Program-made: the position numbers and the translations under genes
Shown here: piece after piece, positions 1,684-60,901 of the stretch
How positions within the stretch are numbered: position 1 is the first letter of the stretch
Layout: every line of letters starts with the position of its first letter
Source: Rickettsiella endosymbiont of Aleochara curtula
Lineage (GTDB): Bacteria > Pseudomonadota > Gammaproteobacteria > Diplorickettsiales > Diplorickettsiaceae
DNA length: 64,000 bases
Assembly (NCBI RefSeq): GCF_964030935.1
Contig: NZ_OZ034990.1
Span: 558,001 to 622,000, forward strand
Direction: 5' to 3'
Notes under the pieces: generated by a model
What the model was told of the DNA's origin: nothing
Seen by the model: only the letters and a program-made list of their open reading frames with translations
Database searches by the model: none

Positions 1684-3432
1684 CTAATCCTGCATTCCTT
1701 GTGAAGGTAACATGACTTTCGGCAGCGGTTGATTAAGACTGGTTAAATCATCGGGTGGAATATTGAGTAAATGTAAAGCATTATTCATCACATGAGAAAA
1801 AATCGGTCCCGCCGTATAACCACCATAATACAAGCGACCTTTTGGATCATGCAAAACCACCGCTACAACGAGACGTGGATGACTCGCAGGAGCAATACCA
1901 ATAAAAATACTATTATAGCGATGTTTTTCATATCCATGCGCGCCGACTATACGCACCGTACCAGTTTTTCCTGTGACTCTATAGCCCGGAACTCGCGCTA
2001 AGGGCGCTGTTCCACCTTTAGTCAATACTGACTCTAACATGTCTAAAACTTCCCTACTGATAGTCTTATCCATCACACGCTGCCCTACTGGCTTTTCATC
2101 TTGTACTTTAAGAAAAGTAACCGGAATTTTGATACCTCCATGCGCTAACACGGCATAAGCTTGCGCCAATTGTAAAGCAGTCACTGAAATTCCATAACCA
2201 AATGATAAGGTCGCAAGTACAAAAGGATTCCATACTTTAAAATTCGGTAAACTACCGGTACGTTCTCCCGGGAAACCACTTTGTGTAATTTGACCAAAAC
2301 CGACTTGATTTAAAGTGTTCCATAAGTTTTCTGCGGGTAAGGAAAGGATAAGTTTTGACATGCCCATGTTGCTAGAAATCTGTAATATCTTGGTCAAATC
2401 CATAACACCATTATTACGTTCATCCATAATTCGCTTACCCGCAACAATCATCCAACCGGGCGATGTATTGATTTCACTGCTGGGAGTATAGCGTTCACTG
2501 GCCAACACACTCGTCATACTGAAGCTTTTGATGGTGGAACCCGGTTCAAATAAATCGGTTAATGCACGGTTACGCGTACGTCCATCCTGCGCCGTTAATC
2601 GATCATTAGGATTATAAGAAGGCCAATTTGCTATCGCCAAAATTTCACCGGTAATCACATCAAGTACAACGACCGATCCTGAGTCCGCTTGATAGCGCTC
2701 GATGCCGCTCTTCAGTTCTCTAAAAGCAACATATTGAATGCGTTTGTCGATGCTTAATTGTAAGTCATGTCCGGGTCTTGGCTGACGTATCGATCGGATA
2801 TCCGCTACAACATGTCCTAATCGATCTTTAATTACTTTCTTTAAACCAGATTGTCCTTCTAACCAATTATTATACGCCAACTCTAAACCTTCTTGCCCTT
2901 TATCATCCACATTGGTTAACCCAACCACATGCGCCATTACTGGACCTTCTGGATAATAACGATGATATTCATTTTGTAAAAATACGCCCGGTATTTTTAG
3001 ATCCTTAATTTGTTTCGCTAAACTCGGATTTAAACCACGTTTTAAATAAACAAATTCTTTAAATTGACCATGCAACCATACTTCACGAATAGCTTTCAAA
3101 GATATTTGTAAAAAATGACTTAACACAGCGAGTTGTTGTCGATTAGGCTTAAAATAAGCGGGATCAATCCAGACTGCATCTACCGGTGTACTAATGGCTA
3201 AGGGCTCGCCATGCCGATCCAAAATCATACCGCGATGCGCCGGAATATTTAGAGTACGCACGGTTCTTGCATTTCCTTGATTGCGCAAGAACTGACGGTT
3301 AATGACCGTTAAATTGATGAGTCTTCCAATTAAAGCTAAAGCGATGATTAGTAGTATAAAAACCACTATCATTAAACGCCACTGATATGTCGAAGCGATA
3401 GGAGTGCGTTTGTTTTTTTTGAATAAAATCAA
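1684..3432 (-). CDS. ftsI: Peptidoglycan D,D-transpeptidase FtsI (PBP3)
   Basis: Class B penicillin-binding protein that cross-links septal peptidoglycan in the inner-membrane divisome. The 582-residue protein has one N-terminal transmembrane segment (about 20-40), a PBP-dimer region, and a transpeptidase domain with all three active-site motifs: STIK with catalytic Ser299, SSN at 353-355 and KTGT at 489-492. Length matches the gammaproteobacterial family (E. coli 588). It is the last gene of the minus-strand mraZ-rsmH-ftsL-ftsI run, 37 bases after ftsL. In most relatives murE and murF follow directly. Here the next gene is a surface protein, so the division/cell-wall cluster is interrupted after ftsI. 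Confidence 0.97.
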   Translation of the reverse strand: MILFKKNKRTPIASTYQWRLMIVVFILLIIALALIGRLINLTVINRQFLRNQGNARTVRTLNIPAHRGMILDRHGEPLAISTPVDAVWIDPAYFKPNRQQLAVLSHFLQISLKAIREVWLHGQFKEFVYLKRGLNPSLAKQIKDLKIPGVFLQNEYHRYYPEGPVMAHVVGLTNVDDKGQEGLELAYNNWLEGQSGLKKVIKDRLGHVVADIRSIRQPRPGHDLQLSIDKRIQYVAFRELKSGIERYQADSGSVVVLDVITGEILAIANWPSYNPNDRLTAQDGRTRNRALTDLFEPGSTIKSFSMTSVLASERYTPSSEINTSPGWMIVAGKRIMDERNNGVMDLTKILQISSNMGMSKLILSLPAENLWNTLNQVGFGQITQSGFPGERTGSLPNFKVWNPFVLATLSFGYGISVTALQLAQAYAVLAHGGIKIPVTFLKVQDEKPVGQRVMDKTISREVLDMLESVLTKGGTAPLARVPGYRVTGKTGTVRIVGAHGYEKHRYNSIFIGIAPASHPRLVVAVVLHDPKGRLYYGGYTAGPIFSHVMNNALHLLNIPPDDLTSLNQPLPKVMLPSQGMQD

Positions 3433-56049: not shown

Positions 56050-57705
<1,656 letters not shown>

Positions 57706-58485
57706 TTAAGAGAGTTGAACCTCCGAAAATAAATGATTATTGAGCCAATGCGCTAGTAAATTGCCCACAAAGTTAGCTGCCTGGGATTCACTCATAAAGC
57801 CTTTATCATAAACTGCTTCGCAGACATCTGCAAAGCATGAACCCTGGAGTAGATTTAAGACTAATGCTTCTGCCTCGGTTAAAGCAATTGCGTATGACTG
57901 TAATCCTTTACGCCAAACTACGCAATGACTCTTAGTCATTAAGACTTCTGGCACGGGTTTTTCTTGGACTAAGGCTTGCCATATCGCATAACTATTGTAA
58001 TTAAAGTTAAAATATTGTACTGATGGGTGAAATTTAAAGCATAGGGACGGCCAATTTTGTTCAGCGACATTGGATAATGCTGCAAAACTCAAATAAGGCG
58101 CATCGGCTGCTTCTAAACTCGTGATTAAGGCTTTAATCAATTGGGCTAATTCACTTAAATGTGGTTGTTCAGAATAAACTGCGTCTTCGCTTAAAAATTG
58201 CGCCAAGGGCTCGCTAAATTTTGCTATCGAATAAAACTGTGAAGGATAACGATCGATAAAGACTTCTGCCAGTTCGGTAAAGGCTTCATCACCTAATAGC
58301 TTGGCCAGCAAGCCGTATTCTTGTTCTAAAGCATCTATCAAGCGCCAAGCATATGCGTTGCCATAGACTGCCAAACGTTCGTATATCGTGCCTTTTACTG
58401 GCAATACTAAGCGATTTAAGATGCGCTCATCTTCTTCGATTAAATGGGTTTGCAAGTCGTGTTGCAAATTAGCTAATGCAGACAT
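57706..58485 (-). CDS. DUF2063-family partner of a DUF692 enzyme (HvfC/BufC-like)
   Basis: A 259-residue protein with an N-terminal helical DUF2063 domain ([51 protein letters not shown]) and a C-terminal winged-helix-like region ([20 protein letters not shown]). This family is nearly always next to DUF692 and in studied systems binds the precursor and supports the oxidase. The gene overlaps the DUF692 gene by 17 bases and ends one base before pyrG. Confidence 0.85.
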
Positions 58486-59305
58486 TTTCTTTCCAATTAT
58501 TTTCTGCTATCTTTTTGGCCTGTTGTAACTCGGCAAATAAAACTGGAAACTCGGGTATATCATCGTCACGTTCTATCATGGTAGCCACTCGTCCAAATCT
58601 CTTTACTGCTTGCTCATACAGAGACCAAACGCCATCGATAATCGGCGCGTCATGTGTATCAATAATATAATCGCCACAATTTTTATGTCCGGCTAAATGA
58701 AACTGCCGTACTCGATGGATAGGCATCGCATTTAAATAGTCTAATGGATCAAAATGATGATTTACAGCGCTGACATAGATATTATTAATATCGAGTAAAA
58801 TAAAACAATCGGCTTGTTCGGCGATAGCCGTTAAAAATTCCCATTCTGTTACTTTAGAATCGCTATATTCTATGTAACTTGAAACATTTTCTAATAAGAT
58901 CTGTCGACCTAAAAAATCTTGTACTTGTTTAACGCGATCAACGACATGTTTCAATGCTTCTTCGGTGTAAGGGAGTGGCAATAAATCATGCATATTTAAT
59001 CCGGCTATTCCCGTCCAACACAAATGATCAGAGATCCAAACCGGCTGTATTTTATCCGCCAATACTTTTACTTTTGTTAAGTATTCGGTATTAAGCGGGT
59101 CACAACTTCCTATTGACAAAGAAACACCGTGCATCACTAAGGGATAGTGTTCGCGGATCCGGTTAAGATAATGCAATGGTTTTCCGCCAGGCACTAAATA
59201 GTCTTCAGTAATCGCTTCAAACCAATCTACTGCAGGTCGATGTTCTAAAATATAAGCATAATGCTGGGTACGTAAACCAAGACCAAAACCTAAAAAAGCA
59301 TCCAT
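58469..59305 (-). CDS. DUF692 (MNIO) multinuclear non-heme iron oxidase
   Basis: A 278-residue TIM-barrel protein opening [17 protein letters not shown]. The likely metal ligands are spread as in MbnB/TglH/Hvf[55 protein letters not shown] and the late MIERDDDIP. Members use two or three irons to oxidise cysteines of a precursor peptide (to oxazolone/thioamide, thiooxazole or excised beta-carbon products). The gene overlaps the DUF2063 gene and lies downstream of a Cys-rich lipoprotein gene on the same strand, the likely substrate. The reaction here is inferred, not shown. Confidence 0.88.
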
Positions 59306-59328
59306 TAAGGTATTAACCTATAAAAAAA

Positions 59329-59368
59329 TCTTTTAATAAAAAAAAGCCGCGTATTGTTACGCGGCTTT
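59329..59368 (-). terminator. Rho-independent terminator between the Cys-rich lipoprotein and DUF692 genes
   Basis: A perfect 11-bp stem, AAAGCCGCGTA/TACGCGGCTTT with a four-base loop (59343-59368), is followed on the minus strand by a long T-rich run (complement of 59329-59342). It is a textbook intrinsic terminator for transcription coming from 59691 and would leave only partial read-through into the DUF692-DUF2063 genes. It could also act for plus-strand transcripts, though no plus gene ends here. Confidence 0.85.
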
Positions 59369-59424
59369 ATTGTACACAGTCGAATGGCTAATGAACAGCC
59401 ATTACAACATCGATAAATTAATTA

Positions 59425-59691
59425 TTATCCGTTCATTTGACTGGTTGCATTTTCAGCGGTTCTGCAACGATGGCGGCGGTGATGTCTACGATGTTTTGGA
59501 GGACATACTTGCTTGCATCGGCTCATACATTTACATGTATTACATGGAGCTGCGCAAGGTGCCGCACAAGGTGTTTCACAGATTGGTGTATTTTCTGGTA
59601 TGTTTCGCGCACCGGTTGCACAACCAGACAAGAATATAGCAGCTGCAGCGGCAGCAATAACTAAACCTGACTTTTTCATGATCATGATCAT
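59425..59691 (-). CDS. Small Cys-rich lipoprotein, candidate MNIO precursor peptide
   Basis: An 88-residue protein with a lipoprotein signal peptide (basic start, Ala-rich core, lipobox LSGC with Cys24). The mature part has nine further cysteines (38, 42, 46, 50, 53, 55, 59, 63, 76), the first four at exact four-residue spacing in CETPCAAPCAAPC, then CKCMSRC and a His/Arg-rich KHRRHHRRHRC tail. This looks like a metal- or thiol-active peptide. MNIO enzymes act on cysteines of secreted Cys-rich precursors encoded beside them, so it is a strong candidate substrate. It is not a recognised BufA/HvfA sequence. The exact start among three in-frame ATG codons (59691, 59685, 59679) is unsure; GGGGAT lies just upstream. 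Confidence 0.75.
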   Translation of the reverse strand: MIMIMKKSGLVIAAAAAAIFLSGCATGARNIPENTPICETPCAAPCAAPCNTCKCMSRCKQVCPPKHRRHHRRHRCRTAENATSQMNG

Positions 59692-59854: not shown

Positions 59855-60901
59855 CTATTTTGAATTTTTCATTAACATTTTGCGACAATAATTGACAGTG
59901 AAAAAATAAATAATAAACAGCATTAAAAAAACTATAAACATCGTGCTTTCATCAAATTGATAATAAAACGCGCATAAACCGACTAAACCTAATACAAAAT
60001 TTGTACAACCGAAAAGTAAATTAATTTGTAAAGGAGAAAAATTTAACGCTAATAATAAATGATGACCATGCTGTCTATCAGAAAAAATAACGGATTGGCC
60101 TTTTATTAAGCGATAAAGCATCACCGCAGTTGCATCAAACAAAGGGATCGACATGATCCATAACATTGTCACTGGTGTTATTGGCTGAATGGTGTTTTGC
60201 GATAGTTCAATTAAAAACCACACTAAACCGAATCCTAATAACATACTCCCCGCATCACCCATAAATATTTGCGCATGTGTGCGACCTGGAAAAGGAAAGT
60301 TAAAGCAAAGAAAACCTATAACACTGGCTGCCAATAATAGTAGTAACATAGTGGCTGAAAAATGTTGTGTAATTATCGCGCAACCGATCAATAAGATTAA
60401 TTCGACTAAAACTAAAGTTCCCGCCAAACCATCTACACCATCTATCATATTAATCGCATTAATAATTCCTAGCCCGGCAATCAATGTCACTATTAAACTG
60501 GTGTAATGCCCCAAATGAATATTTTTTAAAAAAATCAAATTACCTAGATGGGCAATATAATTTTTTCCCCAAAAAATCATTAATAAAACTGCCACAATTT
60601 GCGCAAAAAAACGACTTTTCGCTGATAACTCTTGAAAATCGTCTAATAAACCGACAAACACCAATAAAGCCGATCCGGCAATAAAACTACGATATTGCTG
60701 CAATGAAATCGGTAGCGTTAATAAGCCGACGAGTAAACCCATTAGCATCGCTAAACCACCAATCAAAGGGATATTCCCTTGATGTTGTTTGCGGATGTCC
60801 GGTGTATCCATTAAACCAAGACGCAAAGCTAAGGGGCGCAGTAAAAGAATACAGAACACCGTAATGCAGAAAACGAGTCCTGCAGATAATAAATCAAACA
60901 T
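59855..60901 (-). CDS. wecA: Undecaprenyl-phosphate sugar-1-phosphate transferase (WecA/MraY family)
   Basis: Initiating enzyme that transfers a sugar-1-phosphate, probably GlcNAc-1-P from UDP-GlcNAc, to undecaprenyl phosphate. The 348-residue, eleven-helix protein has PLIGGLAMLMGLLVGLL, VGLLDDFQELSAKSRF with the DD pair, INMIDGVDGLAGTL, FMGDAGSMLLGFGL and the cytoplasmic loop DRQHGHHLLLALNFS. These fit WecA better than MraY. Start at 60901, 16 bases after the transaldolase. It would begin the O-antigen chain exported by Wzm/Wzt. Its exact sugar is not proven. Confidence 0.85.
   Translation of the reverse strand: MFDLLSAGLVFCITVFCILLLRPLALRLGLMDTPDIRKQHQGNIPLIGGLAMLMGLLVGLLTLPISLQQYRSFIAGSALLVFVGLLDDFQELSAKSRFFAQIVAVLLMIFWGKNYIAHLGNLIFLKNIHLGHYTSLIVTLIAGLGIINAINMIDGVDGLAGTLVLVELILLIGCAIITQHFSATMLLLLLAASVIGFLCFNFPFPGRTHAQIFMGDAGSMLLGFGLVWFLIELSQNTIQPITPVTMLWIMSIPLFDATAVMLYRLIKGQSVIFSDRQHGHHLLLALNFSPLQINLLFGCTNFVLGLVGLCAFYYQFDESTMFIVFLMLFIIYFFTVNYCRKMLMKNSK

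Follow-up and report, generated by a model that had tools for sequence, protein, structure and literature searches.

Whether the small cysteine-rich lipoprotein encoded beside an MNIO (DUF692) gene in this DNA is the substrate of that enzyme, and to which kind of modified peptide it would then belong, is the question raised by this locus in the stretch of 64,000 nucleotides analysed here (the window). The original prediction was an uncharacterised MNIO module with a modified metal-binding envelope lipoprotein of a distinct class. Our analysis makes it likely that the module is of the captophorin/bufferin type and that its precursor is related to BufA2 but reduced and lipid-anchored. Direct support comes from the gene identities, their conservation, the enzyme subfamily, the link to BufA2 through intermediates, the lipobox and the terminator. 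In the order of transcription, the locus consists of the following features:

59855..60901, minus strand: glycosyl transferase family 4 gene (PF00953), conserved upstream flank, outside the pathway
59425..59691, minus strand: precursor lipoprotein gene (88 aa ORF), product probably a reduced BufA2-like protein, predicted to be lipid-anchored, His/Arg-tailed
59343..59368, minus strand: intrinsic-terminator-like hairpin of 11 pairs with a T tail, in the 119-nt gap between precursor and MNIO genes
58469..59305, minus strand: MNIO enzyme gene of BufB2 type (PF05114, NF050167 MNIO_BufB, tree, relative 3BWW)
57706..58485, minus strand: DUF2063 + RRE partner gene (PME-type 1, BufC; PF09836; structure model compared with TglI 8hi7_A and 3dee)
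56050..57705, minus strand: pyrG (CTP synthase; PF06418), conserved flank directly downstream, outside the pathway

The three same-strand genes and their domains (PF05114, PF09836) were thus found where they had been predicted. The lipoprotein gene is indeed the upstream neighbour of the MNIO gene, but the description as directly upstream passed over the 119-nt gap with its strong terminator-like hairpin. Likewise, the extent of three genes holds, but the module runs on without a gap into pyrG at 57705. In detail, 17 nt are common to the MNIO and DUF2063 genes, and the stop codon of the latter adjoins the pyrG start (57705-57708), so that the modification genes may be transcribed together with the essential gene for CTP synthase. 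A pyrG gene in a position like that of the window is also present at the loci L048, L049 and L059, the last of which comes from outside the family and yet has both flanks in common with the window, its gene order being glycosyltransferase, lipoprotein, MNIO, DUF2063 and pyrG. The pyrG genes near L051, L057 and L064 were rejected as instances of this arrangement, as they lie on the opposite strand and about 3 kb away. There is no DoxX gene in the cluster and no metal-responsive regulator was seen there, both of which count against a bufferin.

Among the 55 relatives examined, of which the named close ones are Rickettsiella (an uncultured species and R. massiliensis), the lipoprotein gene was found in 14 of the 15 family genomes searched, and the sole genome without it is 64% complete. 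At all 14 family loci the gene lies between the glycosyltransferase gene upstream and the MNIO gene. A DUF2063 gene can be seen at 13 of them, the remaining contig stopping inside the MNIO gene. Values of dN/dS against the window copy range from 0.03 to 0.22, which together with the retention throughout the family indicates that the lipoprotein gene is real and constrained.

As had been proposed, the adjoining MNIO pair very probably has the lipoprotein as its substrate, because the latter occupies the BufA position at every family locus read, is retained one-to-one with the MNIO gene, and because 24 of the 27 class-wide matches to the lipoprotein family profile adjoin a related MNIO gene. A wide occurrence without DUF692 neighbours, named beforehand as an argument against this pairing, was therefore not what we found. 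The lipoprotein might instead be an unmodified metal-binding bystander, with the MNIO pair acting elsewhere or being a relic; a terminator does separate the two genes, the window protein, compared directly, resembles BufA2 weakly, and some bufferin genes are located away from MNIO genes (PMC12452194). Besides the linkage just described, the same BufA position in related loci, the conserved Cys-Lys core and the intact ligand and base residues of the MNIO make this very unlikely.

The enzyme itself is less enigmatic than the term uncharacterised had implied. It matches Pfam PF05114 with 376.5 bits and the NCBIfam model NF050167 (MNIO_BufB) with 389.9 bits at a cut-off of 310, which makes it a bufferin maturase, and it stays below the NCBI cut-offs of the HvfB, ApyH, MbnB and ChrH models. 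In a tree of 87 MNIOs it nests among BufA2-associated enzymes; the branch of the family is starred in this tree, and Legionella loci with CKG repeats are found nearby. Most of the best 80 database loci carry canonical precursors of the BufA2 type (C.GxNxCKGxxxCxTAxxxCKGxNxCKGxG), two of which were confirmed by NF050166. The residue of interest is the following:

58562..58564, minus strand: D248 of the MNIO (ERD-D), from alignments; site reported to be Asp in Cys-Lys enzymes (PMC13097082)

Next to the catalytic-base Asp, enzymes that act on Cys-Lys have been reported to carry Asp and those that act on Lys-Cys to carry Phe (PMC13097082). In the window enzyme, D248 directly follows D247, the equivalent of the proposed catalytic base. 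Asp is found at position 248 in 112 of 124 related MNIOs, and the relative 3BWW has Phe at the equivalent site. D247-D248 and the position in the tree together place the enzyme in the BufB2 or Cys-Lys subgroup. In addition, H59, H94, E139, D172, N175, H203, H207, D216, H218, E245 and D247 are invariant in at least 124 of 125 MNIOs, so that by homology these His, Asp, Glu and Asn residues are candidate metal ligands of a presumably competent catalyst.

Several related loci pair such enzymes with other precursors. At L029/L061 a His-tailed lipoprotein upstream of the MNIO has Cys followed by Ser (KCS, ACS) and has lost Cys-Lys, and the MNIO there has Gly in place of Asp at position 248. A general rule by which enzymes that lost D248 would have substrates that lost the Lys was considered and rejected; L029/L061 conform to it, but most of the other non-Asp enzymes keep CK substrates. 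Legionella precursors with many CKGKNG or CKSxNx repeats and a non-lipoprotein signal peptide (L036, L062, L063, L068, L077, L084, L104) adjoin BufB2-type MNIOs close to that of the window. At L074 a short DUF2282-like (BufA1) ORF at 3061-3291 lies upstream of a BufB2-type MNIO gene with a YceI-like gene in between, both identified by eye.

The partner protein matches PF09836 with 61.1 bits at a cut-off of 27.2. As a phmmer search of the PDB returned chance matches only, a structure model was needed; this model (pLDDT 91.9) matches TglI (8hi7_A) and NGO1945/3dee and, at weak E-values, RRE proteins such as 5v1u_B. With its DUF2063 signature and the RRE-fold domain of the model, the partner is, as modelled, a PME-type 1 protein of the architecture described in PMC12452194.

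Four elements were recognised in the precursor, read from the sequence and, for the ladder, also from alignments:

59620..59622, minus strand: lipobox cysteine C24 (LSGC), predicted lipidation site, Ala at +2
59542..59580, minus strand: CxxxCxxxCxxxC ladder, C38-C50; copy number of its xPC unit differs in relatives
59512..59541, minus strand: core NTCKCMSRCK (N51-K60), predicted modification site(s) C53 and/or C59, equivalent of BufA2 NSCKGxSxCK
59470..59493, minus strand: His/Arg-rich tail HRRHHRRH

The protein comprises 88 aa, or 84 aa if the third ATG is used. The nine further cysteines (38, 42, 46, 50, 53, 55, 59, 63 and 76) beside C24 and the His/Arg-rich tail had been described correctly. 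G23-C24 of the lipobox is invariant in alignment A2, and lgt, lspA and lnt are all found in the window genome, so that the protein is a predicted bacterial lipoprotein and, in this respect, resembles the DAG-RiPPs. The ladder is followed by KHRRHHRRHRC. C53, K54, C59 and K60 are each at least 90% conserved in A2, and when the mature window protein was shuffled 20000 times, a core motif with the same spacing arose in 13 cases.

The ladder, to which attention had been drawn first, is strict in the window (C38/42/46/50) but not across relatives: the xPC unit was gained or lost in L007, L009, L010, L011 and L013, while NxCKCxSxCK and the lipobox are kept across the family. In L014 and in L028/L059 the ladder is absent altogether and the C-K motif persists. 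The emphasis on the ladder was thus misplaced. This variation also bears on the possibility that the same pair is at work but that the enzyme modifies the ladder or CKC cysteines, with a different chemistry or for another metal. The ladder cysteines are indeed the dominant ones of the window protein, the family alone has CKC in place of CKG, and many MNIO-adjacent precursors have 1-18 Cys and products that are unknown (PMC12452194). Given that the ladder varies or is missing while the C-K motif stays, that its cysteines follow Pro, which the related FonBC did not tolerate at the core sites tested (PMC13097082), and that the enzyme is an ordinary BufB2, we consider this quite unlikely. The preferred target remains the Cys-Lys core.

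Beyond the genus of the window, lipoproteins at the same position next to related MNIOs have the signal peptide and the C-K core in common, and usually a tail rich in His/Lys as well. Their cores read TSCKGASSCKG in L014, PSCKGMSSCKA in L015, CCKGMSSCKG in L022, MNSCKG in L027 and MNSCKGVSSCKG in L137, and L028/L059 have a single NSCK followed by KVVKKHHHHH. His/Lys-rich tails are also found in L014, L022, L025, L027, L028, L029, L137 and L141. At L031 (869-1413) two short lipoprotein precursors are placed in tandem ahead of one MNIO gene.

Does the precursor then descend from BufA2? Its sequence contains no EGKCG repeats of the Oxazolin or Buf_EGKCG kind, and the Pfam search returned no match and hence no DUF2282 (PF10048) as in BufA1, in agreement with what had been noted at the outset; Pfam and NCBIfam models together gave no useful direct match. 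The BufA2 model NF050166 (cut-off 60 bits) gave no match to the window lipoprotein at E up to 10. In place of six conserved Cys with two CK/CKG pairs, the window protein has one CKx4CK pair. A profile of canonical BufA2 places it 279th of 312 reported segments, and direct membership in BufA2 is accordingly not claimed. The intermediates score 33.7 (L023), 24.2 (L014), 19.5 (L027) and 14.4 bits (L025) against NF050166, all below the cut-off of 60. When the window protein alone was compared by HMM with shuffled versions of itself, 26 out of 1000 scored as high. As this test is weak, transitive tests via intermediates were used, restricted to mature regions so that signal peptides could not drive the outcome.

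A profile built from seven lipoproteins outside the family gives the window protein the top rank among 438 segments of the window, at E 5e-5 compared with 0.23 for the next one. L014, which belongs to the same family and locus, on its own retrieves canonical BufA2 as 20 of its 20 best matches among 6689 segments, and for a joint profile the best 40 matches listed are all BufA2 precursors. A family-only CKC profile finds BufA2 weakly (7 of the 20 best matches), and a two-sequence profile of L137 and L027 places the window protein at rank 11, not first. In the family a Cys follows C53-K54 where BufA2 has Gly. With C53-K54 and C59-K60 beside an MNIO-PME1 pair, the protein falls into the captophorin Cys-Lys precursor group in the wide sense.

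At the level of sequence comparison, intermediates connect the precursor to BufA2, which is the Cys-Lys precursor group. We take the precursor to be a reduced descendant of BufA2. A rival still to be considered is convergence, in which an unrelated Cys/His-rich lipoprotein was recruited to a BufB2 enzyme and CKxxxxCK arose independently. Short Cys/Lys-rich sequences of low complexity can converge, and on the MNIO tree the loci of the His/Lys-tail type fail to group as a single clade (4 changes, of which starred branches force 1). We nevertheless regard convergence as unlikely in view of the graded series of intermediates that occupy the same place (L023, L027, L137 and L014, of which L014 shares the locus of the window), the signal peptide common to the window and related lipoproteins and the flanks shared with L059. 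Even then the mechanism could be the same, and ancestry alone would differ. With an enzyme that is an ordinary bufferin maturase and a precursor tied to BufA2 through intermediates, the distinct class that had been proposed does not hold. What is new is a precursor group missed by the current NCBI BufA2 model. In addition, L028/L059 suggest that a bufferin precursor can shrink to one NSCK with the enzyme kept, which points to a minimal Cys-Lys MNIO substrate.

The hairpin between the precursor and enzyme genes is present in every family locus, and hairpins of unrelated sequence occupy the same place in L014, L015, L022, L023, L025, L027, L028, L029 and L040; the placement is thus alike at L002-L015, L022, L023, L025, L027-L029 and L040 despite differing sequences. 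Compensatory changes were seen at two pairs, in one sequence each, so that covariation is thin and the positional conservation is the stronger fact. An excess of precursor over enzyme is a common need of peptide modification pathways, and the hairpin probably sets such an excess by yielding more precursor than enzyme. Against this counts that it would cut transcription of the enzyme gene, barring read-through or a second promoter beyond it. The MNIO survey uses neither the word terminator nor the word hairpin.

We infer the modification chemistry and its sites, the membrane destination, the metal and the function as follows. The DUF2063-RRE protein would present the precursor to the BufB2-type MNIO in the cytosol, and the MNIO would oxidise the Cys of Cys-Lys (C53 and/or C59 in NTCKCMSRCK) to 5-thiooxazoles, with a loss of 4 Da each. 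The precursor would then be exported by Sec, lipidated at C24 and cut by signal peptidase II, and Ala at +2 would direct it to the outer membrane according to the +2 rule of E. coli. There the thiooxazole thiols, the unmodified Cys and the His/Arg tail may bind copper(I) and buffer copper at the membrane, while the terminator hairpin 3' of the precursor gene would keep the precursor in excess of the enzyme. A captophorin is defined at the product level by a 5-thiooxazole, -4 Da per site, an absorbance near 305 nm and copper binding.

An MNIO was found in 13 of 13 good family genomes, with one match each except in the fragmented G380, and the MNIO cassette in 15 of 16 family genomes. A copper-exporting ATPase above the TIGR01511 cut-off is present in 7 of the 16; the window genome has one, and several complete family genomes carry the cassette but lack such an ATPase above this cut-off. 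With the cassette in all good genomes and the copper ATPase patchy, the membrane-anchored modified peptide becomes a candidate for basic copper handling in these host-associated bacteria. A search of the literature on copper in Rickettsiella found nothing relevant. It is conceivable, although we think it unlikely, that the single Cys-Lys pair yields a site for copper or another metal unlike those of described captophorins, formed by the thiooxazole, the free CKC cysteine and the His/Arg tail, and that this is the core envelope copper defence of the family.

Among known systems, the GIG operon of Legionella pneumophila (lpg2105-2108; PMC5413113) shares the DUF692 and DUF2063 module, but differs from the window in its DUF2282 (BufA1) precursor and DoxX gene; its promoter is induced by copper and gold (PMC5413113). 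The lipidated CxxxxC precursors (Cluster X, PMC12636315; CxxxxC family, PMC12452194) are likewise short lipoproteins adjoining an MNIO gene, but there is no Lactamase_B_2 gene between the flanking genes of the window, and the CxxxxC spacing, given in the window by C50/C55, is absent in L010 and L014. The DAG-RiPP or lipo-oxazolin NedA of Neisseria dentiae (PMC12636315) resembles the window in its MNIO, partner and lipoprotein signal peptide. It differs in having EGKCG (Lys-Cys) repeats where the window precursor has Cys-Lys and lacks EGKCG, and its lipidation and a change of -12 Da were measured (PMC12636315), whereas lipidation in the window is predicted. As lipidated MNIO products have already been published (PMC12636315), lipid anchoring does not make a distinct class.

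Known bufferins bind copper via Cys-derived 5-thiooxazoles (PMC12452194, PMC13097082). With Bufferin 2 (BufA2-BufB2-BufC; Buf_6/12Cys, Cys-Lys captophorins) the window shares the gene order A-B-C, a signal peptide, a BufB-class MNIO with Asp at the specificity site, a PME-type 1 partner and the NxCKxxSxCK unit of the precursor. Unlike in Bufferin 2, the window precursor fails NF050166, has one CK pair only and C for G after C53-K54, and its CxxxC ladder and His/Arg tail replace the second CKGxxxCKG half and the terminal C..GG. About 16% of the Buf2 precursors are themselves predicted lipoproteins (PMC12452194).
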